Part shown: one piece after another, positions 3,551-16,404 of the stretch | How positions within the stretch are numbered: the first letter of the stretch is position 1 | Layout: the number at the start of each line of letters is the position of its first letter | Source: a virus | Direction: 5' to 3' (one strand) | IMG/VR virus record: IMGVR_UViG_3300044733_000186 | Location: 1 to 22,566 of that record | Length of the DNA stretch: 22,566 bases | Notes under the pieces: generated by a model | What the model saw: only the letters and a program-made list of their open reading frames with translations | What the model was told of the DNA's origin: nothing | Database searches by the model: none | Program-made: the position numbers and the translations under genes

Positions 3551-4044
3551 TTACCCGCACTCCGCCAATCAGGAAAGTCACTTTCGTCAACCACGCCGTC
3601 ACCGTTGGCGTCGTAGCGCAAGTCGTTGCGGTACTTCTCCCACGGGGCGAGGTCGTCGTCATCGTCTTCTTCAGGCTCGTCGATAAAGACTGTGCCTTGC
3701 GGATCGTCGTACACCTTCGGCGCCATCGCTGGCGTCAGTTCAAGCGGCGCTTCTGGCTCTGGCGCCGGCGCAGGCTCAGGGTCGGTGTCACGGGCGTTAG
3801 CGTTGAGGCTCAGGCCGCCCAGCAGTCCGACAAGCGCGCCGATGATGGTCTGGAACGCAGGGTTAATCATCTCAAGGACGGCAGTGCTGTCCACGACATC
3901 GTTAGGCACGAACATGCCGACGACCAGCGCCAGCACGACGACAAGGATAACTGCCGACAGCGTAACGATTGCCACGCGAACGACAAACTCAACGGTGTCG
4001 TTGACGCCGTCGTGCTTGCTTTCAAAACTATTCAGGAAGCTCAT
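3547..4044 (-). CDS. Lysis-cassette membrane protein with acidic tail and EF-hand/dockerin-like loop
   Basis: The protein has 165 residues from the chosen ATG; a longer frame exists upstream, but its extra N-terminus lies wholly inside the previous gene, and GAAGGA stands about 9 bases before this ATG. Residues 20-45 form a strong membrane helix and residues 60-80 (MINPAFQTIIGALVGLLGGL) a second. A Pro/Glu/Ala linker (87-105) and an acidic run (EPEEDDDDD) follow. The end contains DANGDGVVDESD (145-156), which fits the calcium loop consensus DxNxDGxxDxxD. The second helix matches that of the preceding gene, so the two look like duplicates. Placed just before the endolysin it may be a holin or regulator. 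Function not established. Confidence 0.85.
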   Translation of the reverse strand: MSFLNSFESKHDGVNDTVEFVVRVAIVTLSAVILVVVLALVVGMFVPNDVVDSTAVLEMINPAFQTIIGALVGLLGGLSLNANARDTDPEPAPAPEPEAPLELTPAMAPKVYDDPQGTVFIDEPEEDDDDDLAPWEKYRNDLRYDANGDGVVDESDFPDWRSAGK

Positions 4045-4306
4045 CTTCTTCGTCCTTCTTCTTTTGCATAGCGCCGCTGCCCTGACCCGCCATAAGTCCT
4101 GCCAACGCCCCGACAATGAACGTCGCTATCGGGTTAATCAACTTGAAAAACTCAGCGTCGTTAGGGGACTGCCCTTCCATCGGCTGCGACACAAACACCA
4201 ACGAGTATAGCACGGTCGCAACGATGAACGTCAGCGTCAGCGACAGGACGATCCCGACGATGAACCGCAGCAATTCCTCCGGCGTCCATTCACTTCTCGG
4301 CTTCAT
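4028..4306 (-). CDS. Two-TM holin-like membrane protein
   Basis: This 92-residue protein has a charged start (MKPRSEWTPEELLR), a first membrane helix at about 13-39 (FIVGIVLSLTLTFIVATVLY), a short polar loop, a second hydrophobic segment at about 55-76 (LINPIATFIVGALAGLMAGQ) and a charged C-terminal tail (MQKKKDEEDELPE). Size, two helices and charged tail are what class II holins have. The pattern INPxxxxIxGALxGL is shared with the next gene. It overlaps the upstream lipoprotein gene by 17 bases and the downstream gene by 17 bases. Holin is the best guess from location and topology, not from a recognised family. Confidence 0.82.
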   Translation of the reverse strand: MKPRSEWTPEELLRFIVGIVLSLTLTFIVATVLYSLVFVSQPMEGQSPNDAEFFKLINPIATFIVGALAGLMAGQGSGAMQKKKDEEDELPE

Positions 4307-4478
4307 GTTCTTCTTCGCCTGTATTGATTAGCCATTCGGTGCAGTAGCCCATAGCGATGCAGCGCGGCTTCTTGCAGAGTTCGTCTTCCCAATTCGCAGG
4401 GTCTTGGCAATCGTAGCGGTAGCGGTCTTCGCAGCCAGCAAGCACCAGCGCCGCCAGTAGTAGACTGACTATACGCAT
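4290..4478 (-). CDS. Small cysteine-rich lipoprotein
   Basis: The 62-residue precursor starts MRIVSLLLAALVLAGC, a lipoprotein signal with lipobox LVLAGC and lipidation at C16. The mature part has four more cysteines (C24, C35, C40, C46), which could make two disulfides in the periplasm, and an acidic tail. A sequence of the type CEDRYRY-CQDPxNW is known to me from lysis-region proteins of other environmental podoviruses. It sits where a spanin outer-membrane subunit (Rz1) would be, but lacks the proline-rich stretch of Rz1, so this is uncertain. GAGGG lies close before the ATG and overlaps the end of the upstream gene's stop. Confidence 0.82.
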   Translation of the reverse strand: MRIVSLLLAALVLAGCEDRYRYDCQDPANWEDELCKKPRCIAMGYCTEWLINTGEEEHEAEK

Positions 4479-4485
4479 ACGCCCT

Positions 4486-4665
4486 CTAGCCGGCCTTTTG
4501 CAGCACGTTCATTAGTATGCCGATTAGCAATACGATGATTGTGCCGGCGGAAGTCATGCCGACTTTTTCAATACGCTTCATCCGCGCGCAGATACTCTCG
4601 TACCTGAACGCGCAGACCTGTTCGTGCGTGTTAAGTTGCGCTTGTGTTTCGTCGATAGTAGCCAT
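4486..4665 (-). CDS. Small one-TM protein, holin candidate (59 aa)
   Basis: The frame gives MATIDETQAQLNTHEQVCAF as an N-terminal soluble helix, a basic patch (RMKRIEKVG) and one membrane helix (SAGTIIVLLIGILMNVL) followed by QKAG and a TAG stop. This soluble-helix plus single C-terminal TM layout resembles the XhlA-type haemolysin/holin partners found in phage lysis cassettes. It lies 2 bases after the ejection-protein gene and 7 bases before the lipoprotein gene, filling a gap that otherwise would have no gene. The ribosome site is weak. The case rests on spacing, start-to-stop fit and membrane topology. Confidence 0.72.
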   Translation of the reverse strand: MATIDETQAQLNTHEQVCAFRYESICARMKRIEKVGMTSAGTIIVLLIGILMNVLQKAG

Positions 4666-4667
4666 TG

Positions 4668-6449
4668 TTAGCGTCTCATGGAGTTAAGATTTACAAACTG
4701 CTTTTCTTTAGGTAGCCTGCCATATATCGGCACGGCATACCCTTCAGAAAAATCTACATCTACCAGTGGTTCACCGGAGTCAGGGTCTATGTCGGGAAAG
4801 TTATACTGCTGTGCGACTTGCGCGGCTATCTGCGGCCTAAACATTTCGCGGGCAGGTGTACCCCGCGCCTGATCCAACATTTTATTGACTTTACCGAGCG
4901 CCATTTTATTAGCCGCCGCGCGCGACGCAAGCCCGCCGCCGGCTATAGTGGCGCCTAGCAACGCAAGACCCGGAGAACCACTATACATAGCTGAACCGGC
5001 GCCCGTTAATGCGGCTGCCGCCGGTAACGAGCGAACTACCTGCTGCGGCGTCGTAGGCAGGGTCGGCCCAAACGTCCCAAGCCCTTGAAGCGTTGACAAC
5101 CCGCCAGTGCCGCGGCCCAAATCTTTTATTTGTTTTTGAATGGTAGGATCAAAAGCCCGCTTTTTTCTTTCGCTTTTACTTACCGACCGCGCCGCCGCCC
5201 GTATCGTATTAGCGGACAGCCCTTCCGCAGTATCGGTTGCTTTCTCTACTATCATATTTTTGATATTGTCAGCTTGGCTTTTGCGGCGATACGCCGTCCG
5301 CGCTTCTTTTATAGCGGATGCTGCGCCGGGGGCATCGCCAGCTATGACAGCGTTGGCGGGCGGCGCGTCAACAAAGTCGTCAATCTGCCGAATAATATTG
5401 GATGTTAAGCGGCGCTCGTCTTTATCAAGGCTACTCCCAGCGGTCCGCGCGACGCGACGTAAAATTTCCATTTGTGAAAACGAAATCGGCGTATTATTTT
5501 TTTGAGCATCAGCTATAACCTCATCTATACGCTGTAAAACGCGGTTCACCCTTGGGTGGAGAACCTCATCAAACTGCACTTTAGGGTCGGAAAGCGACGT
5601 GCGAATGTTCTGGGTTAGTTGTGAAATAGCAGCGGGGTCGAATTGAACACCAGCTTCCTCTGCGCGCAAATACGCCGCATTTGTTAGCTGCTCTAATTGA
5701 TCAGACGTGACAGGTGTAGCGCGGGGGGTTGCCATCCGACCGCCGGCCATGCCGCCGGCCACCGACAAGCCAAACTGTGCAAGAGGATTTTCTATACCTG
5801 CGTACTCGCGGCCAATCGTAGGGGCCGCAGCAGCGCCAGCGCCAGCCGCAGTTTGCACGCCGGGACCGCGGCCAAGTTCCTGCATGACGTTGCGAGTTAC
5901 GCCGGGCGCAGTAGTTTGTGCAAGTTCTCTAAATGCTGTTGCGCCGCTTAGACCCCCGCCAGCGCCTTCGACAGTACGGAACAAAACTTCCTGTTCAGGT
6001 GTCTGCGGTCTACGTCCAATACCAACAGTCTCATACCCACGGCGGATTGTCTCTGACGGCAGCGGAATAGTTTTAGCGTCAAACGCAGGGGCGAACACGT
6101 TATATATGGATGTACCAAGGTCAGCAATGCCCAGCGACGTTACACCGGCAGCAGCGCCGAGAGGCGCGCCAAGACCGCCGGTGGGGATGCCGGTTGCCGC
6201 AGCACCTAACCCCGCTGCCGTAGCGTAAGGCAACAGTGCGCTGGATATAACACCCGCGTATTGTGCAGCCGAACGGTCGGGGGCGGGTTTGGTTGGGACG
6301 CCCGAAAGATAATTAATAATTTCTGCGTCAGTATATCCGGCTTCGCGCGCGGCAGCGGTGTCGAACGCATCTTCAGTGGCTAGATACTCAGCAATTTCTG
6401 CGTCAGTGTAGCCAGCAACGCGCGCACCTTCGACATCAAACTTAGCCAT
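4668..6449 (-). CDS. Large internal virion (ejection) protein with AGYTDAEI repeats
   Basis: This 593-residue protein is rich in Ala and Gly. The N-terminus holds two copies of AGYTDAEI-x2-YL (residues 12-22 and 37-47), a motif I know from internal virion proteins of other podoviruses. Hydrophobic Gly/Ala-rich segments lie at about 63-125 and 465-510 and could insert in a membrane. The middle (about 250-430) is helical and charged, with likely coiled coil. The last part (FPDIDPDSGEPLVDVDFSEG) is acidic. It follows the transglycosylase ejection protein by 2 bases, so the two probably act together in carrying DNA across the cell envelope. The role is inferred from position and composition, and no enzymatic motif was seen. 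Confidence 0.78.
   Translation of the reverse strand: MAKFDVEGARVAGYTDAEIAEYLATEDAFDTAAAREAGYTDAEIINYLSGVPTKPAPDRSAAQYAGVISSALLPYATAAGLGAAATGIPTGGLGAPLGAAAGVTSLGIADLGTSIYNVFAPAFDAKTIPLPSETIRRGYETVGIGRRPQTPEQEVLFRTVEGAGGGLSGATAFRELAQTTAPGVTRNVMQELGRGPGVQTAAGAGAAAAPTIGREYAGIENPLAQFGLSVAGGMAGGRMATPRATPVTSDQLEQLTNAAYLRAEEAGVQFDPAAISQLTQNIRTSLSDPKVQFDEVLHPRVNRVLQRIDEVIADAQKNNTPISFSQMEILRRVARTAGSSLDKDERRLTSNIIRQIDDFVDAPPANAVIAGDAPGAASAIKEARTAYRRKSQADNIKNMIVEKATDTAEGLSANTIRAAARSVSKSERKKRAFDPTIQKQIKDLGRGTGGLSTLQGLGTFGPTLPTTPQQVVRSLPAAAALTGAGSAMYSGSPGLALLGATIAGGGLASRAAANKMALGKVNKMLDQARGTPAREMFRPQIAAQVAQQYNFPDIDPDSGEPLVDVDFSEGYAVPIYGRLPKEKQFVNLNSMRR
6318..6407 (-). repeat. 75-base-spaced repeat inside the ejection protein gene
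   Basis: The 15-base string AATTTCTGCGTCAGT (plus-strand reading) occurs at 6318-6332 and 6393-6407. It encodes the conserved part of the two AGYTDAEI motifs, giving a 25-residue repeat. The flanks have drifted, so this is an old, selected protein repeat and not a recent DNA duplication. Confidence 0.85.
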
Positions 6450-6451
6450 GT

Positions 6452-8203
6452 TTACTTCCTACGGAAAGAGTCGAGAGCCGGTTTACCTTTGGACCCGCCA
6501 GTTGGTGTACCTTTTGGTTTTACGTATGTCATGCCAGCGCCGCGCACAAGTATCGGCAAGACTACGTTTTGCCATTTTGCCAGACGTTCGTTAGCGGGCG
6601 TGTTGGGGTCAGCTATATCACCCATCGTGCTAGCTATTAAGCGGACGTCAGCGTCTGAGATTTGCGCGCCTAACTTACCGCGCAACTTTTCAAACGTCAT
6701 ATTATCTTTTATTGACGCTAGTTGGCCTATTGCCACGCGCCCCGGCGTAGATTCGCCAAAGAAACCAACTATGTCGGAACCAATCTTTTCCAAGCCGCCG
6801 CTAGTAGATGCTTTGATTAACGCTGAAACTGAGTCTTCGCCCGTTTTTTCGTTGTAATCAAACAAATCAAGGGTTTTCTTAAATCCTTTCTGGCGCTGTT
6901 GTTCACCGATAGTTTGCGATTTGGGCGCCGCGCTTGTAGGTGTACCCGCGCCTGTCGATGTGCCTGTGCCTGTACGTGGAGGTGTAGCGGTTGCGCCGGT
7001 AGGCGCGCCAGCGCCGCCAAACACAGTCCTAACATACTTACGTGTTTCTAGCGGGACATGGTTAATCCAGCCGTTAGCACCACCTTTTTTCAGCGCGCTA
7101 CGCACGGCGCCGGGGCCAGCGTTGTACGCAGCCGCCGCCAACTTTTCGTCGCCGCCGAAGTCACGTAACTGCTTTTCATAGTATGCTTTGCCGAGCGCAA
7201 GGTTATACTCAGGATCGTTGCGGTAGCGGTTGTCATCGAACGGAAGTCCTGCCAACTTAGCCGCTTCTGGCGCCGTGCCCGGCATAACCTGAGCAATACC
7301 AATAGCGCCTGCCGATGACGTGAGCGGGCGACCGTTGCGGTCAAACTGCTTACCGCGAGACTCCGCCTGTATCATTCTACTAAACGTATTACCGCCAGCG
7401 CCCGGCGTGCCGAGGCTGATCGACGGGCCGCCAACAGCGGGGGATGGCTGCTCCATCCGAGGCTGCACAAGGGGCGCGCCTGTGCCAGCGCCAACCGCGT
7501 ATGGCGACCTAACGCCAGTGCTGGCGAAAGTAGGTTCGCGTGCCGGAAGACTGCGGTTTTGAGTTGGGTCGCCAATAAGGGCTTCGGCGGCTACGCCGGT
7601 AACTGGGTTTACGTTATACAAGGTGCTGTCAACAACTTGTTGGGTCATTTTAACCGGTTCTGGCGCTGCCGTAAACCGGAACAGTTCTTGACCCATAATA
7701 GGTGACGCAGGGTTAGCGTCGTAGAACACCGTAGCGTCGCCTACCTTTTCTGATTTTACTTCAGGCATCACAAATTTAAGCGCCGCGCGCGCGGGTTCCG
7801 ACTGCGCGATAAATTGCATCACAAATAGTTTGCGTGCATTTGGGTCAGGTATATCCTGTATCTGTTTTAGTATGGGGCCAAATTTGTCCTGTTCCATCCC
7901 AACCGAGGCAAAAGTTTGCCCAGCCTGCATTATGGTTTCGTTGGATGGATCGCGCAATATGCCCACCAAGCCGGTGCCTAATGCGCCCGCTACTCTTGCG
8001 GGTTGCTCCGCGCCGAACTTTGCCACGTCGCGCGCTTCGGCTGCCTGCGCGTATTGCATCTCCTGACGTGTGCGCTGGGCTTGAAGGGCCGCAGCTTCTG
8101 CTTGACGCGCCATATTCATCATGTTTGAATACTGCGCGGTCTGACGCGCAGGATCAGGAAGCTGAGGGTTACGCGCCTGAAGGGCTATCATTTGGTTTGG
8201 CAT
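6452..8203 (-). CDS. Ejection protein with soluble lytic transglycosylase (SLT) domain
   Basis: In this 583-residue protein a lysozyme-like SLT domain spans about residues 272-395: catalytic E281 in QAESRGKQ, SSAGAIGIAQVMPGTA (296-311), then AAAAYNAGPGAV (356-367) and the end motif ETRKYVRTV. It should open the peptidoglycan locally during DNA entry, as the transglycosylase part of T7 gp16 does. The first 270 residues are helical with a Gln/Ala-rich start; a Thr/Gly/Pro linker (400-426) leads to a C-terminal helical domain. It lies between two other ejection proteins with gaps of 2 and 3 bases, which matches the three-ejection-protein set of P22-type phages. No signal peptide, consistent with packaging inside the head. 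Confidence 0.9.
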   Translation of the reverse strand: MPNQMIALQARNPQLPDPARQTAQYSNMMNMARQAEAAALQAQRTRQEMQYAQAAEARDVAKFGAEQPARVAGALGTGLVGILRDPSNETIMQAGQTFASVGMEQDKFGPILKQIQDIPDPNARKLFVMQFIAQSEPARAALKFVMPEVKSEKVGDATVFYDANPASPIMGQELFRFTAAPEPVKMTQQVVDSTLYNVNPVTGVAAEALIGDPTQNRSLPAREPTFASTGVRSPYAVGAGTGAPLVQPRMEQPSPAVGGPSISLGTPGAGGNTFSRMIQAESRGKQFDRNGRPLTSSAGAIGIAQVMPGTAPEAAKLAGLPFDDNRYRNDPEYNLALGKAYYEKQLRDFGGDEKLAAAAYNAGPGAVRSALKKGGANGWINHVPLETRKYVRTVFGGAGAPTGATATPPRTGTGTSTGAGTPTSAAPKSQTIGEQQRQKGFKKTLDLFDYNEKTGEDSVSALIKASTSGGLEKIGSDIVGFFGESTPGRVAIGQLASIKDNMTFEKLRGKLGAQISDADVRLIASTMGDIADPNTPANERLAKWQNVVLPILVRGAGMTYVKPKGTPTGGSKGKPALDSFRRK

Positions 8204-8206
8204 GAT

Positions 8207-8956
8207 TTATCCGTCGTCTGAAAGTGGGTTGATGCCGCCGCTACCGGGTGTTCTGTTTTTATAGTACTGCATAATGGCGTTGTTCATAGGTGCATTGGCT
8301 GCGTATCCACCTATCTGACCCAACGCGTTTGTCAGCGCGTTAGCAGAGCCGATGTAACCAGATGCGCGGGCTTGACCTGCGTTATATATGTTTGATGCTT
8401 GGTTCTGACCCATCTGTCCAGCAGCACCCGTAAGCACGTTAGTGGCGGACTGACCCGAACCCATCAGCGATTGCAGCGGATTAAGACGCGCCGACCGCTC
8501 GACCTGATAGCGGTTAAACGCGTTCTGATATTCTTGGCTGGCTAAGTCTTGGCCGAAACGCTGCACACCCTTCAGAGTGGAGCCGGACAACAGATTGCCG
8601 CGCGCGGCTGCCGACCGCTCTAGCGCCTTCATGCCTTCCGCTTGGCGAAAAGCATAGCCGGGGTCTTGCTGGAATTGATCAGTACCAAAGGCTTTCGCCA
8701 TACTGCCGTAGCCAGCGGCGGTATTGTCACCGCCGATACCTAGTAGCCGCATAAGTTCATTTTGCGCGGTAAGGCCACCTTCACGAAATGGCGCTTGCAG
8801 TTCCGTTTGCCGCTGGAACATCCGCTCCTGCGCTGCGGTCGCGTCTTGCGCCGCGCGCTCTTGCGTTGCTGCTGCTTTTTTAGCTGCTTTTCCCGATATG
8901 GCGGCACCGCCAATTGCGGCTGTAGCTGTTATAGCTGCTGCTGCTGCTAGACCCAT
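8207..8956 (-). CDS. DNA transfer/ejection protein, P22 gp7-like position
   Basis: This 249-residue protein has an Ala-rich hydrophobic N-terminus (LAAAAAITATAAIGGAAISG) and a central block typical of phage DNA-transfer proteins: QQDPGYAFRQAEGMKALE followed by SAAARGNLLSGSTLKG and LASQEYQNAFNRYQ (about 96-150). The rest is low-complexity Gly/Asn/Ala with several NA-rich helices. It would be packed in the head and released first or with its two neighbours to form the DNA-entry channel. GCT codon runs near the start encode the alanines. The family is recognised from the DPGY-FR-EG-KALE block; the equivalence to P22 gp7 is by size and gene order. Confidence 0.85.
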   Translation of the reverse strand: MGLAAAAAITATAAIGGAAISGKAAKKAAATQERAAQDATAAQERMFQRQTELQAPFREGGLTAQNELMRLLGIGGDNTAAGYGSMAKAFGTDQFQQDPGYAFRQAEGMKALERSAAARGNLLSGSTLKGVQRFGQDLASQEYQNAFNRYQVERSARLNPLQSLMGSGQSATNVLTGAAGQMGQNQASNIYNAGQARASGYIGSANALTNALGQIGGYAANAPMNNAIMQYYKNRTPGSGGINPLSDDG

Positions 8957-8957
8957 T

Positions 8958-10025
8958 TTACGCTTCCTTCAGTTGCAAACGGTACGCACTACCGTGATCT
9001 TGCGCGCCGAGGCGCTTGTATAGCATGGAAATACGGGGGCCGGAACCCCTTTTCCCTGCCTCAAAAAACACTTCGTCAACCCCTTTATTTTTTAGTTCTT
9101 TAATTGCTTCGCGTTGCAGTTTCAATCCCAGACCGGGGAACTCTGGCGACGCGAAGAATGTGGTGTTCGTAGCGGATAAAATGTCTGGGGAAGTCAGCGA
9201 CGGCGATATTAGCGTCATCAGATAACCAAACATACGACCATTACACCGCGCAGTCATTATCTGCATAGCGCCAACATTGTCCAGCGCGCGCATCAGCGGC
9301 AAGTTTTTATTCTGCCAGTTGCCCGGTGTCTCGCCGACGCCCACAAGATGTTCGTCAAATAGCTTATCGGCATCCTGCACCCAGCTATCAAAGTCTTCTG
9401 TCTGAAAAGTGATGCCTTCGGGCGGCTCGTCTACTTTCGGCGTTAGCGCCGCTATCGTCTGGTGTTTGGCAATCGACGCCAGCTTTTCCATCGCTGGCGC
9501 GTATGCTGCATAGTGACGCATCATGGCTGGCATACTGATCTGGATGTTGACAGGCGCTATCTGCGCCCAATGCGCGGAGTCATGCGGCTGCTGAAGGCAA
9601 TGCTCGAATACAGCAGCGCAAGTGTCTTCTTCATTCAGGCTGTCAAACGACACTGACAAGACGTTGGGCAACCGCGCCTCTATCTGGTCTAGGCTGCGGT
9701 CCAGCTTCAGCAGTACGGCGTCAAGTTTATCGCGGTCAAACTGCGTGCCGGGTATGCTCATCAGACTTTCAACAACTTCGTCGCGGGGCCGGCGTACAAC
9801 CAGAACGCGGGCGTCAGGGGCAAACCGCTCTAGCAGTCTCCACCAAGGCGCGCCGGCTGTCTCCGCAGTGCCAATGTTAGGCTGCGAGAACCATGCCTGC
9901 ACATCGTCAAGGCTACGCATATGCCGTAACTCTTCGTGGCCGCACATCCATTCACCATAAGTCAGAAAACGGGACAGCCAAGCTGATCGCGATCTGGGTA
10001 ATGAAAATACGACGAAGGGCGGCAT
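8958..10025 (-). CDS. Sulfotransferase-like plus GNAT acetyltransferase-like fusion
   Basis: The first part of this 355-residue protein looks like a sulfotransferase/P-loop enzyme: FSLPRSRSAWLSRFL (7-21) is the 5'-phosphosulfate-binding loop pattern and VLVVRRPRDEVVESL (74-88) the 3'-phosphate motif that binds PAPS. From about 205 onward the protein looks like a GNAT fold: ARCNGRMFGYLM (259-270) as strands 3-4, FPGLGLKLQREAIKEL (296-311) as a somewhat degenerate acetyl-CoA loop and helix, then VDEVFFEAG and MLYKRLGAQ, the usual C-terminal GNAT signature. The gene overlaps the upstream stop by one base (TAATG) and is one base from the DNA-transfer gene, so it is co-translated with virion genes. 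What it modifies is unknown; virion protein, host surface or a metabolite are all possible. Confidence 0.78.
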   Translation of the reverse strand: MPPFVVFSLPRSRSAWLSRFLTYGEWMCGHEELRHMRSLDDVQAWFSQPNIGTAETAGAPWWRLLERFAPDARVLVVRRPRDEVVESLMSIPGTQFDRDKLDAVLLKLDRSLDQIEARLPNVLSVSFDSLNEEDTCAAVFEHCLQQPHDSAHWAQIAPVNIQISMPAMMRHYAAYAPAMEKLASIAKHQTIAALTPKVDEPPEGITFQTEDFDSWVQDADKLFDEHLVGVGETPGNWQNKNLPLMRALDNVGAMQIMTARCNGRMFGYLMTLISPSLTSPDILSATNTTFFASPEFPGLGLKLQREAIKELKNKGVDEVFFEAGKRGSGPRISMLYKRLGAQDHGSAYRLQLKEA

Positions 10026-10360
10026 TAGCTAACCAGACGGCCTGACGCGCGGATGTTGATGGCGGACGCCGTGCCAGCGATTGTGCTGATGAAGCCATTG
10101 TTAGGCAGCACATGACCAACCAGTTCAGGAAACGTATACGTCTCTGATGGCTGGAGCGTCTTGGTCTTAACAATCAAGTTGTCGTTACCGGCGCTGCCCG
10201 CAGCCGTCACAAGGTTGACGCTGATCGTCGCTGCGCTGACGCTGTAGTTAGTTGCGGTGAACTTGTCGATGATCGTCTGCACGCCGTTCGACGTGTACTG
10301 CGTCGTCTGGCTGTTCTCCGCTGTCTTAGCGGGAATGATGTTACTAATAGATACGGCCAT
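10025..10360 (-). CDS. Small beta-rich structural protein (111 aa)
   Basis: This protein is mostly beta strand by composition: alternating hydrophobic/polar stretches such as YSVSAATISVNLV and ISTIAGTASAINIRASG, with few charged residues. There is no signal, TM helix or cysteine. The sequence ends in RASGRLVS. Proteins with this LQPSETYTFPELVGHVL style appear in phage head-tail regions as small head or tail decorations. It begins one base after the C1q-like gene and ends overlapping the sulfotransferase start. Likely a virion component; exact place unknown. Confidence 0.7.
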   Translation of the reverse strand: MAVSISNIIPAKTAENSQTTQYTSNGVQTIIDKFTATNYSVSAATISVNLVTAAGSAGNDNLIVKTKTLQPSETYTFPELVGHVLPNNGFISTIAGTASAINIRASGRLVS

Positions 10361-10361
10361 A

Positions 10362-11210
10362 TTATGTCTCCAAAGAACTTATGTTGTCTGTCACCGTCAA
10401 AATGATTGACGGAACGGAAGGGTGTACGGCAGACGCCGCTTCAGCTAACAAAATAACAGATGTGTCGTCCACTTCCCACATTAATTCGATGTAGTCGCCA
10501 GCGTTTAGTTGGATGACGTAATTCCATGCAGCCAAAATTTCAGCGTTATTACCTTGTATGCGGATTTGACCGGCGCTGTCAGGGACGTTAACGCCGTTCT
10601 TGCGTAACCATATCCACACCAAACCGACACCGCCCGCCGTTTTATCTAGCTGCGCGGAGAACTGCACGTTGTAGACATTTGGCCGGTCAACAAAGATGCG
10701 CGACGTTGGTGTGCCGCGGGTGACGCCTACCGACAAATCAGTGGTGTTGAACGTCATGGCGTAGGCTGTGTTGATTGCTGCCGCTGTCTGTGATGTCGTG
10801 TCATAGAAAGAACCGTAGCGCGGCGACCGAAACTCTTTTGGTGGCGGCGACAGCGCCAGCGCCTGCAACTGCGATTGGATAACCGCGATGTCGCTTTCCG
10901 TAGCAGCCGGCGGCGTGACGCCGGTGGCCTGCGCCAGACTGTTTACCTTGGCATCCACGTCAGCCGTAGCAGAACAGCAGTCAGGGGCGCTTTCGGTTGT
11001 CTGCGCCAACGACTCCAGCATGGCGTCATAGGACGCTATCAGCGACGTAGCGTCCGGCGCTAACTCGACTTCGTCTTGGTTGGTCTGCGTAGCTGTCAAC
11101 AGCGATAGGAAGAACCGATACCATTCACGGCTAATCGCGCCTGACCGTTCGTCGATCAGGGCCACACGCGGCGGCGTTAGCTGTGTAGGATTGATCGGCG
11201 AATACGCCAT
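10362..11210 (-). CDS. Virion protein with helical N-terminus and C1q/TNF-like C-terminal domain
   Basis: The 282-residue protein starts with a motif often seen in phage structural proteins, ERSGAISREWYRFFLSLL (21-38), followed by an acidic helical/coiled-coil part (about 45-120, with C77-C78). Residues 130-280 form a beta-sandwich that reads as C1q/TNF-like: YGSFYDTTSQTAA, then IFVDRPNVYNVQFSAQL, VWIWLRKNGVNV and VIQLNAGDYIELMWEVD. Such domains trimerise and may be needle, fibre or knob parts. It could occupy the P22 gp26 tail-needle slot, directly after the gp10-like gene in transcription order, but this is only by position. Its start overlaps the gp10-like stop by one base. Confidence 0.78.
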   Translation of the reverse strand: MAYSPINPTQLTPPRVALIDERSGAISREWYRFFLSLLTATQTNQDEVELAPDATSLIASYDAMLESLAQTTESAPDCCSATADVDAKVNSLAQATGVTPPAATESDIAVIQSQLQALALSPPPKEFRSPRYGSFYDTTSQTAAAINTAYAMTFNTTDLSVGVTRGTPTSRIFVDRPNVYNVQFSAQLDKTAGGVGLVWIWLRKNGVNVPDSAGQIRIQGNNAEILAAWNYVIQLNAGDYIELMWEVDDTSVILLAEAASAVHPSVPSIILTVTDNISSLET

Positions 11211-12640
11211 TAGGCAGTCGTTCCGCTGAGCAGCAGTTCAGCGCCCATGATGTAAATCCGTACAGGGTCGGTGCCTGACACTTCGTAGACGCGGTCGCGT
11301 ATCTTCATCGTCGCGCCAAGGCGGCGCCAAATGGTACGATAGCCAGAACGGCCAATACGGCCCATCGACTTCCAGTGTTCGCTGGACCATGTGTGCCCGC
11401 CGTCGTCCGACCAGCGCAGCATGGCTTGCGGATTGCTGCCTTGGCCGTTGTTCAGGCCCACGCCTGTCTCGCAGTCAAGCTGCATGGAGTGCTGGATAGT
11501 ACGCGCAAGGTTGTTAGCGCCCGTCGGCAGCGCACGCCATGACCGCAGCCATTTCTGCGGTGCGCCATCGTCAGCGTATACGTTCAGGTCGAATGAATAA
11601 ATCTTGCCGTTCTGATAGTCGCCGACCACCGTAGTGGCGTTGAAGAACATCTGACTGCTGGCGCGGTGACGGTTAAACTCACCGTTAGCGAACGACGCCC
11701 GCTCATGCCATGCGCCGGTGGCGACATCATACACCCATGTGGTGTTGGCGGTGGGGAAGTTCAGAACGTAGAAGCTGTGGCCGTCCTGCTGATACGTGTA
11801 GCCGGTTGCGTCCGAAATGTCGGCATACTCTTGCATCTGCCATTCGATAGCGTGCGTAGACACACGCTGACCGATGTAGCCAGCGGCCCTGTAGACGATC
11901 CCTTGACCGCGCGCGTCCTTGCCTAGCCAATAGACTTGATTGTCCATCTTGGCGATGCTGTACGGCGCCGCGCAGCCTAGTTCGTTGAACGCGCCTTGGA
12001 TACGCGTCAGCGGGAAGTCGAGCAGCCCTGCGTCGTACCAGACTTCGGTCGAGTTGGTGCCGAACACCCACACTTCGCGGTGGTCAACAAATATAGCGAC
12101 CACATTGTCAGGGTTGCCTTCGGCGCTGGCAAACTCCAGCGGATCAACAGACAGGCCGTCAAGCAGCGATGTAACCCAGATTTTCTGCGTGCCGGGTTCG
12201 TTGAACGTAAAATAGCCGTCGATGTAGCCGACCGTGCCGGCGCCGGGGAAGTCAGGGTCGGTGATCTGCTGGAACACATCGGTGTTGGCGTTGTAGATGT
12301 AACCTAGCGGGTTAGCAGCTATGAATAGCTGCGTGCCGTTGTCAGCCATGCTGACAGGGCCAGTGCCGCCTACAGTGCCTTTGGCGACCGCGTTCCAGTT
12401 GCTGTCGATCTGATACAGCGTAGGGCCAGATACGGCATAGCCGTAGTCGCCATAGGTCCACAGCCCGCGGATAGGACCGATGCCAACAGTTGCTAGGGTA
12501 GTCAGCCCCGGCGCGCGCTGAAGGAACGCTGGTTCCTTGCCGCCTTCTGGGACAATCTCAGGAAATAGGTTAACCATGCGGTTGTCGGCGGCGTTGACGC
12601 TTCTAGCGACATACGCCGACCCAAGGATCGGCGTCTTCAT
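11210..12640 (-). CDS. Head-completion/DNA-stabilisation protein, P22 gp10-like
   Basis: At 476 residues it is close to P22 gp10 (472). The start MKTPILGSAYVARSVNAADN with RMVNLFPEI is typical of this family, and the body has repeated beta blades (GPIRGLWTYGDYGYAVSGPTLY, then VGYIDGYFTFNEPGTQKIWV) as in a beta-propeller hub. The end NRVYE-type block (RDRVYEVSGTDPVRIYIMGAELL) is also characteristic. In P22 gp10 closes the portal below gp4 and carries the tailspikes. It lies directly after the gp4-like gene with a one-base overlap, as expected. Confidence 0.9.
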   Translation of the reverse strand: MKTPILGSAYVARSVNAADNRMVNLFPEIVPEGGKEPAFLQRAPGLTTLATVGIGPIRGLWTYGDYGYAVSGPTLYQIDSNWNAVAKGTVGGTGPVSMADNGTQLFIAANPLGYIYNANTDVFQQITDPDFPGAGTVGYIDGYFTFNEPGTQKIWVTSLLDGLSVDPLEFASAEGNPDNVVAIFVDHREVWVFGTNSTEVWYDAGLLDFPLTRIQGAFNELGCAAPYSIAKMDNQVYWLGKDARGQGIVYRAAGYIGQRVSTHAIEWQMQEYADISDATGYTYQQDGHSFYVLNFPTANTTWVYDVATGAWHERASFANGEFNRHRASSQMFFNATTVVGDYQNGKIYSFDLNVYADDGAPQKWLRSWRALPTGANNLARTIQHSMQLDCETGVGLNNGQGSNPQAMLRWSDDGGHTWSSEHWKSMGRIGRSGYRTIWRRLGATMKIRDRVYEVSGTDPVRIYIMGAELLLSGTTA

Positions 12641-13350
12641 TAGTAGTTCCCAGCGTAGATGTTGAACCGCTGACGTGAAGCAATCAGGCTGTACGGTATC
12701 GACATGATGTCATCAGGGTTGTTGATGCGCTTGATGTTACGCTTCGACGACATCGCCAAACGGCGGACTTGCGACGAAGGCTCCGTGCCGAACTCAGGGG
12801 CCATTTCGCAGGCCAAGTTATAACGGAACGCACGCAGATAGCCGGGCGGGAAATGTAGTTGCGTTGCCAGCGTCGCAGGCTGCGTCAGTTCTTCAACCGA
12901 AATGAAATGCCATGTCAGGTCCGCTGTGGGGCGCGGATAAATAAACATTTCAATGTCAGGGTACGTCATGTTGACGAAAATAACTTGCGGAAATGTCGAT
13001 GTGACGGACTTGACCGCGATACCGTTATACTGCTGCTGGTTGATAAATTTGATGCCGTAGCTGACGCCGGTGCCGGGCTGGACGAAGTACGTCGATTCAT
13101 CAAGCAGGACAGGGCGGTTGCCGACGAAGTCGCCGGAAGGCCCAAGCGTGCGCGATATTTGCCCTGCGGGCCATGTGAATATTTGGTCTTGTGTTGCAAA
13201 GACGGACAGGCGCTCTGTGTTCCAGCTATCAATCATCTGGTTCATGGCGCGCAGTGCGTCTTGCGATGTCTCAGCCGATGGAACTTCGCCTTCTGCCAGA
13301 ACACCTAGAAGCCTAAGCGATCCGTTGATTATGTCCCCAGCCGTATCCAT
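12640..13350 (-). CDS. Tail accessory/head-completion factor, P22 gp4-like
   Basis: The 236-residue protein begins TAGDIINGSLRLLGVLAEGE with ALRAMNQMIDSWNTERLSVF (29-50), the helical signature of the P22 gp4 family that plugs under the portal. The later part has the aromatic/proline-rich FPPGYLRAFRYNLACEMAPEFG block (about 166-187) and RRLAMSSKRNIKRINN. It is longer than P22 gp4 (166 aa), as most environmental relatives are. It lies directly before gp10-like, matching P22 gene order. Its ATG has GGAAG upstream in the tail of the 59-aa gene. Confidence 0.87.
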   Translation of the reverse strand: MDTAGDIINGSLRLLGVLAEGEVPSAETSQDALRAMNQMIDSWNTERLSVFATQDQIFTWPAGQISRTLGPSGDFVGNRPVLLDESTYFVQPGTGVSYGIKFINQQQYNGIAVKSVTSTFPQVIFVNMTYPDIEMFIYPRPTADLTWHFISVEELTQPATLATQLHFPPGYLRAFRYNLACEMAPEFGTEPSSQVRRLAMSSKRNIKRINNPDDIMSIPYSLIASRQRFNIYAGNY

Positions 13351-14391: not shown

Positions 14392-15600
14392 TTAGCCCCA
14401 CATCCGGACGGCCATTTGCGGACGGATCGTGCTGTAGCCATACAGAACGTCAATACGGCAAGGCATACGGTCGTTGTTGATGTCGTACTGACGAACAACG
14501 CGAAGCGAGATGCCGTTGTGTACCTGACGCGAAGCCATATCTACGCCTTGTGGGAGCAGAAGGTCGGCGGTTGCGAAGGTGATGGCATCCTTGTGGTAGA
14601 TGAGGTTCTGCGCGTATTGCGAGTTGGATGCACCAACGAACACAACTGCTTGGCTGTTGGCAGGCAGTGCATTGACGGTAGCAAGCGCGTGACCAGCCGA
14701 GTAGATCGGTGCAACAGTGATGCTGCCTGCGCCAGAGCCGTTGAGCAAGACATCAGCCAATGCAACGAACTGGAACAACGAACCTGTGCTTTCACGGGTC
14801 TGTGGGTTGACAGCAAAGCAACCGTTTACAGTGAACACGTCACCAGCCTTGACGGTGTCGTTAGCGCCAGCGCCAGTGATGGCGATGGTGGTTGCGCCTT
14901 CTGCCGTTACAGCAGCCGAAGTCGAACCGCCAGTTGCGTCGCGCGTACCAGTGGTGAACTGCTTGATGGACTGCGACATATTGATTTCGTCGAAACCAAG
15001 TACGCCAGTACCCATCATGCCGTTCTTGAACTGCTTGCTGATCGTGTCGGTTGGGTTGAATAGACCCTTCATGCCTTCGACCAAACCAGCGTTTGCGGCT
15101 GGGTTGACGGTGGCATAACGTGGCGACATCACGGCAGCATTTTCGTTCAGCTTCTGCTGTGCAGCAAGAAGAACAGCCGAAGTAGCTGGCGTAGTGCCGG
15201 GCGTGCCGACAGTGTTACCGATGGTCAAGAACGAGTTTGCAACGTCAGCGTCGATGCTCGAAGCAAGCTGCGAGATACGTGGCTTCAGAACACGCTCTGC
15301 GAAATCGTCCAACTGCATGGTCAATTCAGCAGTGGTGAAGTTAACGCCGATGTGCTTCTGGTTGGCAACGGTCAGAGTTGTGAACTGCTCGTTGTCGTCC
15401 TGTACCTGAAGGGCTGCGCCATCAGTTACAAGTGCGCGGTCTGGAAGACGGATACGCAGGGTTGAACCGATCTTGGCACCTTCAACAGCAAAGCTGTCGT
15501 CGTACTGACGGTTTACGTTACGTGTAAGAACAAGGTTGTTTTCGAGAATCTCAAGCGCCTTGCGCGTGATCATGTCGATTGTTAAAATCGAGTTAGACAT
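14392..15600 (-). CDS. Major coat protein, P22 gp5-like
   Basis: The 402-residue protein resembles P22 gp5 (430 aa; HK97 fold). The start SILTIDMITRKALEILENNL and the block FAVEGAKIGSTLRIRLPDRA (37-56) are typical of this coat family, as are IGVNFTTAELTMQLDDF and the end YDINNDRMPCRIDVLYGYSTIRPQMAVRM. A Gly/Thr/Ala-rich part at about 215-300 (TTIAITGAGANDTVKAGDVFTV) fits the inserted I-domain of P22-type coats. It follows scaffold by 15 bases with an AGGA ribosome site, and is followed by a strong hairpin. Main shell protein of the capsid. Confidence 0.9.
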   Translation of the reverse strand: MSNSILTIDMITRKALEILENNLVLTRNVNRQYDDSFAVEGAKIGSTLRIRLPDRALVTDGAALQVQDDNEQFTTLTVANQKHIGVNFTTAELTMQLDDFAERVLKPRISQLASSIDADVANSFLTIGNTVGTPGTTPATSAVLLAAQQKLNENAAVMSPRYATVNPAANAGLVEGMKGLFNPTDTISKQFKNGMMGTGVLGFDEINMSQSIKQFTTGTRDATGGSTSAAVTAEGATTIAITGAGANDTVKAGDVFTVNGCFAVNPQTRESTGSLFQFVALADVLLNGSGAGSITVAPIYSAGHALATVNALPANSQAVVFVGASNSQYAQNLIYHKDAITFATADLLLPQGVDMASRQVHNGISLRVVRQYDINNDRMPCRIDVLYGYSTIRPQMAVRMWG

Positions 15601-15615
15601 GGTAATAATCCTAAA

Positions 15616-16404
15616 TTATCTGTTGCGTTGTGCCTCGAACTTCTTGATCTGCCGTAGCCGTTCTGCCTCAATCCAATCTGACGTACTCATGGACTTTACG
15701 GCCCGTGGGTCTGTCGTATCAAATGTCGGCGCACCAGAGGTGCGGGCAGTGACAGGTGCAATCGGTGCCGGGGCGTTGGATGTTTTTTTGAGCGTAGGTT
15801 CGGCTGTAAGCCGCGCCTCGATCATACCAATTTCCCTAGCTTGCAAAATGGGGTCCATACGCGAAATACGCTGGGCGTCTTTTTGGTTAAGCCCTAAGTG
15901 ATAAATCACGTCGGGACCAATATCGGACGCTTGTATTGCTAGTGCCATCGCGTCGGTGATTGGAAGGTTGGGGTTGTATGCGACTTGTTCAAAGTCGTCA
16001 TATTTGTCCCGCGCCGCCTCTTCACGTTCGTGATAAGACTCTAGCATTGCACGTTGCTGGCTGTCCTTTTCACGGCGTGCCAGCAGTTCTTCGGCTTTAC
16101 GTTCGGCCAAAACCTCTGCGTAATCCTCATAAGTCTCAAATTGATCAGGGGTTATGTCGTGGATCGGCTGCTGCCGTGCCTGCATTTCCTCTGCTCTTTG
16201 AGCCTGTTCGCGTTCCCATTTACGCTGCTCTCTTGCGAGTCGTTTGCCTACAATGGCGTCCAAGTCTTCTTGTGTGAAGGTCTTGGGTGCTTCCTGCTCA
16301 GCAGACTGCTCTTCCGGCGTCGTGTTTTCTACAGGCTCGATTGCTGCCGTGGCTTCGAGTTCTGGCGCGGAGGCATCCGCTTCGGTAAAGACATTATCGT
16401 CCAT
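15616..16404 (-). CDS. Scaffolding protein
   Basis: This 262-residue protein is acidic at the N-terminus (many Glu/Ala) and very rich in Glu, Arg, Lys and Gln in the middle, with long predicted coiled coils. The sequence TFTQEDLDAIVGKRLAREQR (42-61) is a hallmark of phage scaffold proteins. The C-terminus STSDWIEAERLRQIKKFEAQ with NR is basic and helical, as in the coat-binding end of P22 gp8. It is immediately before the coat gene, as expected. No protease domain is present, so it probably leaves the shell intact as in P22. Confidence 0.88.
   Translation of the reverse strand: MDDNVFTEADASAPELEATAAIEPVENTTPEEQSAEQEAPKTFTQEDLDAIVGKRLAREQRKWEREQAQRAEEMQARQQPIHDITPDQFETYEDYAEVLAERKAEELLARREKDSQQRAMLESYHEREEAARDKYDDFEQVAYNPNLPITDAMALAIQASDIGPDVIYHLGLNQKDAQRISRMDPILQAREIGMIEARLTAEPTLKKTSNAPAPIAPVTARTSGAPTFDTTDPRAVKSMSTSDWIEAERLRQIKKFEAQRNR

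Follow-up and report, generated by a model that had tools for sequence, protein, structure and literature searches.

Little is understood of the GNAT and gp13-type genes found in podoviral virion modules. T7 gp13, which falls in phrog_308 (E 1.1e-42), and P22 gp14 (DUF2824, phrog_651) are encoded ahead of the first gene for an internal virion or ejection protein, and both DUF2824 and the T7 gp13 family are placed in a GNAT clan. The GNAT genes of the Zobellviridae, SIO1 (pc40) and VpV262 occupy a similar place beside internal virion genes, and PMC6775973 equates the pc40 GNAT with T7 gp13. For phage phiPsa17, a text passage on the detected virion proteins (PMC4517105) gives the homologues of gp14, gp15, gp16, gp6.7 and gp7.3, the gp13 homologue going unnamed in that passage, which fits an assembly factor. 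As regards sulfotransferases, phage proteins of phrog_10855 and phrog_38824 (for example of Pseudomonas phage Ab18 and Stenotrophomonas phage Bhz60) share 27-29% identity with the sulfotransferase-like half described below; their genes stand alone and lie away from the virion module, in the company of genes for replication and nucleotide metabolism. Such genes are at present labelled 'hydrolase' or hypothetical (L048:7001-7552, L049:6980-7558), and their relation to sulfotransferases suggests a better label. Sugars or small molecules are the substrates of many bacterial sulfotransferases, and the enzymes that rank first by Foldseek for the half studied here are the tyrosylprotein sulfotransferases TPST1 and TPST2.

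In the locus reported here the two kinds of domain are joined in one polypeptide, and it is very probable that this sulfotransferase-like plus GNAT-like pairing is a genuine, conserved feature of podoviral virion modules. An account of a sulfotransferase-GNAT fusion was not found in the open-access papers searched, judged mostly at title and abstract level; the parts are of known kinds, and the pairing and its four arrangements appear new.

The fusion gene and its virion module

The window analysed is the whole stretch of 22,566 nucleotides of IMG/VR virus record IMGVR_UViG_3300044733_000186. Its virion genes lie on the minus strand and follow one another, in the order of transcription, as a scaffolding protein (15616..16404; phrog_8865, E 2.9e-29), a major capsid protein of the P22 coat type (14392..15600; phrog_283, E 3.8e-73), two small genes, a P22 gp4-like head-tail adaptor (12640..13350; phrog_637, E 1.2e-10), a P22 gp10-like head closure protein Hc3 (11210..12640; phrog_578, E 2.1e-132), a 282-aa gene with a weak tail or appendage-like match (10362..11210; phrog_746, E 1.3e-3), a 111-aa gene that is present in some loci of the family (10025..10360), the fusion gene (8958..10025, 355 aa), a gp7-like DNA ejection protein (8207..8956; phrog_598, E 4.1e-39), an ejection-type protein bearing a transglycosylase (SLT) domain by family match (6452..8203), and a 593-aa protein in the third ejection position (4668..6449), probably an ejection protein by its place and with no clear family match. 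An HMM grown from the gp7-like protein of the window recovers P22 gp7 with an E-value of 9.7e-24. The gene order and the virion families indicate that the window belongs to a P22-type short-tailed phage, and among named records its coat protein finds its best matches in Manatee Spring ctNMl277 (80%) and phage DSL-LC05 (74%).

An earlier note, made from the letters of the window, had described an open reading frame at 8958-10025 in which a sulfotransferase is fused to a GNAT and which is embedded among virion genes next to those for ejection proteins. The frame was found as described, its neighbours are virion genes by PHROG assignment, and the gp7-like gene directly downstream bears out the adjacency to ejection proteins. 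The genes are tightly packed: the fusion ATG (10025) shares one base with the stop codon of the 111-aa gene in a TAATG overlap (10025..10027), and a single base separates the fusion TAA (8958-8960) from the gp7-like ATG (8956). When the fusion protein was searched against PHROGs, residues 3-184 matched phrog_10855 (E 1.3e-9) and residues 207-350 matched phrog_1249, an acetyltransferase family (E 1.6e-5); the match was to phrog_1249 and to neither phrog_308 nor phrog_651. About 44-45 near loci of the fusion were found in IMG/VR. Of 44, 38 were translated, the other six being contig-end fragments, and none of the 38 contained an internal stop; the product has 355 aa in 37 of them and 354 aa in one, at identities of 90-100%. 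Between the window and 15 relatives (15 pairs), the median dN/dS is 0.108 for the sulfotransferase half and 0.052 for the GNAT half, and both halves are under purifying selection. A chance or artefactual origin of the fusion was rejected, since no stop interrupts any of the 38 near relatives that were translated and fusion is seen in 90 of the 123 distinct sequences of the wider set.

Predicted folds and conserved sites of the two halves

The AlphaFold2 model of the whole fusion, built from an alignment of 26 sequences (pLDDT 85), shows a sulfotransferase-like half at residues 1-193 (9447..10025) and a GNAT-like half at residues 204-355 (8961..9416), separated by a linker at residues about 194-203 (9417..9446); the mean pLDDT drops to 64 at residues 191-200, in the linker zone. 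Structure prediction favours two separate folds in one chain over a single known domain of another type. Fold searches with the full-length model returned only GNATs from the PDB because the GNAT half filled the list, and the first half was therefore modelled alone, with a pLDDT of 94.2. With this model, tyrosylprotein sulfotransferases take the top 13 places of the Foldseek list (chains from seven PDB entries; E from 2.8e-6, TM-score by query length 0.53-0.62, identity 15-19%), and the best 12 rows of the VIA comparison are all sulfotransferases (Z 13.4-11.9), headed by the sulfotransferase domain of an olefin synthase (Z 13.4) with the tyrosylprotein enzymes tied behind. The lead over kinases is small: gluconate kinase comes next in VIA with Z 11.8 against 11.9 for the last sulfotransferase, and shikimate kinase has Foldseek rank 15. 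It is the motifs that, given this narrow gap in fold, decide for a sulfotransferase; a Walker-A kinase identity is not favoured, the loop being without GxxxxGK[ST] and the top VIA rows being sulfotransferases. The sulfotransferase fold claimed for the P-loop half is in this way borne out by prediction and comparison.

The Pfam family Sulfotransfer_3 matches the fusion with an E-value of 5e-4 and a score of 20.8, under the curated cut-off of 27, and the relative L210 exceeds the Sulfotransfer_4 cut-off (28.9 vs 22.8). In PDB searches the de novo helix bundle 9u78 (E 9.6e-4 and 4.4e-7) was dropped as arising from a short repeated match; one search that also gave 9u78 placed real sulfotransferases at E 0.0076 and 0.062 (SgdX2).

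All the motifs named for the fusion at the outset are present, namely the P-loop in FSLPRSRSAWL (residues 7-17), the second phosphate motif in VLVVRRPRDEVVESL (residues 74-88), and, in the GNAT half, FPGLGLKLQREAI (residues 296-308) and MLYKRLGAQ (residues 334-342). Their conservation was counted with one representative per 70% cluster, which gave 64 clusters for the sulfotransferase half and 61 for the GNAT half. The loop SLPRSRSAW (residues 8-16, 9978..10004), which we take to be the 5'-phosphosulfate loop, follows strand 1 in the first-half model (strand 4-8, loop 9-13, helix 14-20); P10, R11, R13 and W16 are found in 64/64 clusters and S12 in 63/64. The candidate catalytic pair H30-E31 (9933..9938) is equally constant, with His at position 30 and Asp or Glu at position 31 in every cluster. 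E32 occurs in only 33/64 clusters, and its assignment by spacing as the counterpart of TPST2 Glu99 was accordingly dropped. R79 and S87 (9765..9791), each in 64/64 clusters and eight residues apart, correspond to the 3'-phosphate motif by the Arg/Ser spacing of known sulfotransferases, and the conserved residues presumably serve to bind PAPS. G52 is present in 64/64 clusters, and E55 and T56 in 63/64. Altogether 18 of 192 columns of the first half are kept at 95% or more, at a mean pairwise identity of 0.47 among fused and 0.39 among split forms; PAPS-type residues that remain almost invariant in halves of such low identity look like an active site.

The resemblance to TPST1/2 extends to the predicted fold, the 5'-phosphosulfate loop and the spacing of the 3'-phosphate Arg and Ser. 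The half encoded in the window differs from these enzymes in having only about 190 residues, in its low identity to them and in its location in a phage virion operon; moreover, its family carries the loop PRSR[ST]xW, in which an Arg replaces the Gly of the TPST loop. As a fold in common is no proof of function, the modelled likeness to tyrosylprotein sulfotransferases is to be read at the level of fold only. The first-half model is also matched by sulfotransferases whose substrates are polyketides, glycopeptides, small molecules or heparan sulfate (VIA Z 13.4-10.7), the best VIA row being among them. Such matches would agree with an enzyme that acts on the host, carrying out late sulfation, and perhaps acetylation, of a lipopolysaccharide precursor, a surface polymer or a small molecule, for example so as to block adsorption of new phage; the genomic evidence on this alternative is taken up with the arrangements below.

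The GNAT fold of the second half is found with the full-length model, for which Foldseek returns GNATs of the PDB from E 1.9e-7, with tRNA cytidine acetyltransferase at rank 1 (1.1e-7), and the best VIA match to this half has a Z of 16.0 over 146 residues at an rmsd of 2.7. A profile of 38 GNAT rows finds solved GNATs from E 1.2e-6. The Pfam search gave no GNAT row for the fusion of the window; the relatives L171, L207 and L152 exceed the Acetyltransf_1 cut-off. Homology to the GNATs of Zobellviridae and other podoviruses was detected by tblastn (E 1e-4) and by HMM (E 1.9e-15 and 3.6e-15), VpV262 being the best BFVD hit; the Zobellviridae-type GNAT is a single-domain gene, whereas that of the window carries a sulfotransferase. 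The equivalent of the CoA loop, ASPEFPGLGLKLQR, lies at residues 292-305 (9111..9152) and has Pro where Arg would be expected from the motif Q/R-x-x-G-x-G/A, which we take to be that of the CoA pyrophosphate loop. Across the 61 clusters this loop drifts, position 297 being Pro in 34, Arg in eight and Ala in six, G298 being kept in 42, and position 300 being Gly in 50 or Ala in nine. The site of Tyr336, presumably the usual catalytic Tyr of GNATs, carries Tyr in 31 of the 61 clusters and Phe in 24; among the 17 split forms, 14 have Phe. Of the 153 columns of this half, seven hold a residue that is conserved at 95% or more (an eighth such column is a gap), and R260 and Y268 are found in 61/61 clusters.

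These observations bear on the two-headed modifying enzyme that the earlier note had proposed. Both folds and intact PAPS-type motifs agree with it, but the CoA loop and the Tyr of the GNAT half drift across the family, so that the supposed two-headed enzyme may be one enzyme plus one tether. If both halves were active, a single chain would sulfate and acylate either one substrate or paired ones. The GNAT half of the window itself, with its G-x-G loop and Tyr336, agrees with this, as do its dN/dS, lower than that of the sulfotransferase half, and the relatives that pass the Acetyltransf_1 cut-off; the family-wide drift of loop and Tyr, with Phe in place of Tyr in most split forms, counts against it and makes dual activity decidedly improbable. 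The same drift, together with a gp13/gp14-like position that suggests a structural or chaperone role, would agree with a protein in which neither half is a working enzyme and both folds act as scaffolds of an assembly factor or internal virion protein, as T7 gp13 may. R11, R13, H30, R79 and S87 are, however, present in every cluster, and S12 in all but one, at the low mean identities given above, and we regard a purely structural role as unlikely.

Distribution and arrangements of the pairing

Relatives of the first half were collected from IMG/VR as the best 80 of 307 confirmed matches for one query and the best 80 of 377 for a more distant query. The set analysed holds 123 distinct sulfotransferase sequences, counting that of the window and the stand-alone ones of two named phages, and falls into 67 clusters at 70% identity. 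The GNAT is fused in 90 sequences and encoded by a separate gene directly after the sulfotransferase in 23; five have no GNAT hit and five are cut off. In the split form of L156 the sulfotransferase gene (7989-8546) is followed by a GNAT frame (8527-8994), with a 20-base overlap as called, and then by a gp7-like gene. The recurrence of the two-domain architecture in other phages, for which the earlier note had asked, thus holds in IMG/VR; it did not extend to a collection of 50,697 phage records, in which no record with both halves together was obtained with the fusions of the window, L136 and L165, the sulfotransferases of L312 and L158, and the DNA of L182 as queries. The fusion of the window matched 18 of these records, each on one half only (cover at most 46%), and the L158 sulfotransferase matched four, on the sulfotransferase only; the L136 and L165 fusions, the L312 sulfotransferase and the split-pair DNA of L182 (near mode) gave no match among them.

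The place of the gene is largely constant. HMM markers made from these same loci were used to chart it. Where the flank offers 1,800 bases or more, a gp7-like gene was found downstream in 64/74 fused and 14/19 split sequences; where it offers 3,500 or more, Hc3/Ad3 was found upstream in 62/73 fused and 16/21 split sequences. Some marker-less loci lie in virion modules of other kinds: L207 encodes tail proteins of phrog_394 and phrog_376 and an internal virion protein of phrog_418, L213 has a phrog_376 tail module, and the DNA ejection protein of L191 belongs to a different family (phrog_4287); no PHROG match was obtained for the genes tried from L205 (two) and L175 (one). The module of the L207 type is T7-like by gene order and sizes, T7's own proteins falling in other PHROGs (446, 457, 805).

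In further loci the partner of the sulfotransferase is a gp13-family domain or a relative of it. In the nearly identical phages L190 (5536-6621) and L193 (4432-5532) the sulfotransferase forms the C-terminal part of a fusion whose first ~150 residues belong to phrog_308 (E 7e-24 and 1e-23), the family of T7 gp13, and in L190 the next gene encodes an internal virion protein of phrog_418. A separately encoded product that is 43% identical to the gp13-family domain of L190/L193, and has no Pfam match, occurs in L311 and L312 (region 4001-5085 of the latter), with the sulfotransferase gene directly after it. The sulfotransferase is therefore coupled in four arrangements to a small factor of the internal virion slot, which is either a GNAT or a gp13-family protein: a fused sulfotransferase-GNAT, a sulfotransferase gene followed by a GNAT gene, a gp13-family domain fused before the sulfotransferase, and a gene for a gp13 relative before the sulfotransferase gene. 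Neither T7 gp13 nor P22 gp14 shows a detectable sequence relation to the GNAT half of the window, and their homology by sequence found no support, hhalign scores being at noise (15.0 for the pair A7-A8, and 15.6-18.4 for the five best of 50 shuffled-column controls); the link between GNAT, gp13 and gp14 is positional.

A tree built from 69 sulfotransferase rows unites the gp13-linked with the stand-alone forms in one clade (SH-aLRT 99) and places the window among the fused forms. To account for fused versus all other forms this tree requires six changes, and its well supported branches force two or more of these; it was obtained by a quick method, and 33 of 65 inner branches are weak. This repeated fusion or adjacency, in both orders and in more than one kind of virion module, strongly hints at a slot for the chemical modification of ejection proteins; if that were true, sulfation would join the known modifications of virion proteins.

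Seen from the genomes, action on the host would agree with the distant stand-alone relatives located away from virion genes and with a gene that is dispensable among near relatives. A surface-modifying gene would, however, be expected to move about, and the same location next to ejection genes in the majority of sequences whose flank is long enough, in another kind of virion module too, and the coupling to a gp13-family protein speak against a host substrate, which we consider possible though on the unlikely side. As to the sulfate donor, APS kinase is above cut-off in all five genomes or MAGs that hold the family, so that PAPS can be made there, a permissive result only as it is also above cut-off in 11 of 14 control genomes.

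Proposed role during assembly and further loci

The repeated coupling, the usual place and the near-invariant PAPS-type site make a partner-delivered sulfotransferase the best explanation of these data, and the place of the gene points to an ejection or other virion protein as its target. The reading that we prefer, and hold tentatively, is that of a sulfotransferase tethered to a gp13-like assembly factor, whose target while the particle is assembled would be a virion or ejection protein. The fusion protein would be a late enzyme, produced alongside the ejection proteins, whose N-terminal half would bind PAPS and transfer sulfate. The C-terminal GNAT-fold half may fill the role of an assembly factor of the T7 gp13 or P22 gp14 type and could dock on newly made ejection (internal virion) proteins, thereby delivering the sulfotransferase to them; the likeliest substrate would be one of the phage's virion proteins, probably an ejection protein, which would be modified before or during packing. 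In favour of such a mechanism are the two predicted folds, PAPS-type residues that are intact, the purifying selection on both halves, and the recurrence of the pairing and its usual location. Against it stand the near relatives without the gene, one clade in which the sulfotransferase precedes gp7 without a GNAT hit (L208, L221 and others), the distant stand-alone relatives outside virion modules, and a link between the GNAT half and gp13/gp14 that is without profile support.

The pairing across many uncultured phages suggests the chemical tagging of something while the injection apparatus is being built. It is conceivable, although we doubt it, that podoviruses of many lineages sulfate their own ejection proteins through delivery of the gp13/GNAT type, in what would be a phage virion protein sulfation system, the GNAT-fold genes there being docking or modification units for grafted enzymes; if this were true, it would explain why GNAT-fold genes adjoin ejection genes at all. 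An accessory gene adjoining ejection genes also recalls a counter-defence factor, injected or made late, in which sulfation would inactivate a host defence protein or signal, and another phage acetyltransferase, Rac, reportedly acts on a host protein (a reference cited in PMC10269572); we nevertheless regard a counter-defence role as highly improbable.

The near relatives DSL-LC05, Rhodoferax phage P26218 and MW202483 gave no match to the gene, either in the phage-record search or in the stretches of them that were searched, which indicates that particles of this type can do without it. In relatives lacking the fusion, small genes of other sorts fill the slot before gp7: a cupin-like gene, by eye only, in DSL-LC05 (L314:5411-5884), a product with a SET-like C-terminus in Rhodoferax phage P26218 (L315:5000-5875; E 0.015, under cut-off) and a GNAT-like product in Pseudomonas phage PAE2 (L317:4480-4887; E 0.027, under cut-off). 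This slot may be a general site for modifying enzymes. In L208, L214, L215, L217 and L221, of which only L221 was read by frames, the sulfotransferase lies between Hc3 and the gp7-like gene and has no GNAT hit. In L160 (1-2824) the fusion is opposite in strand to the flanking gp7 and Hc3 matches, either an inversion or an assembly error. Lastly, a fusion of this kind is found in a phage region of the Azospirillum rugosum genome (L152:8001-9059), which offers a possible experimental system.
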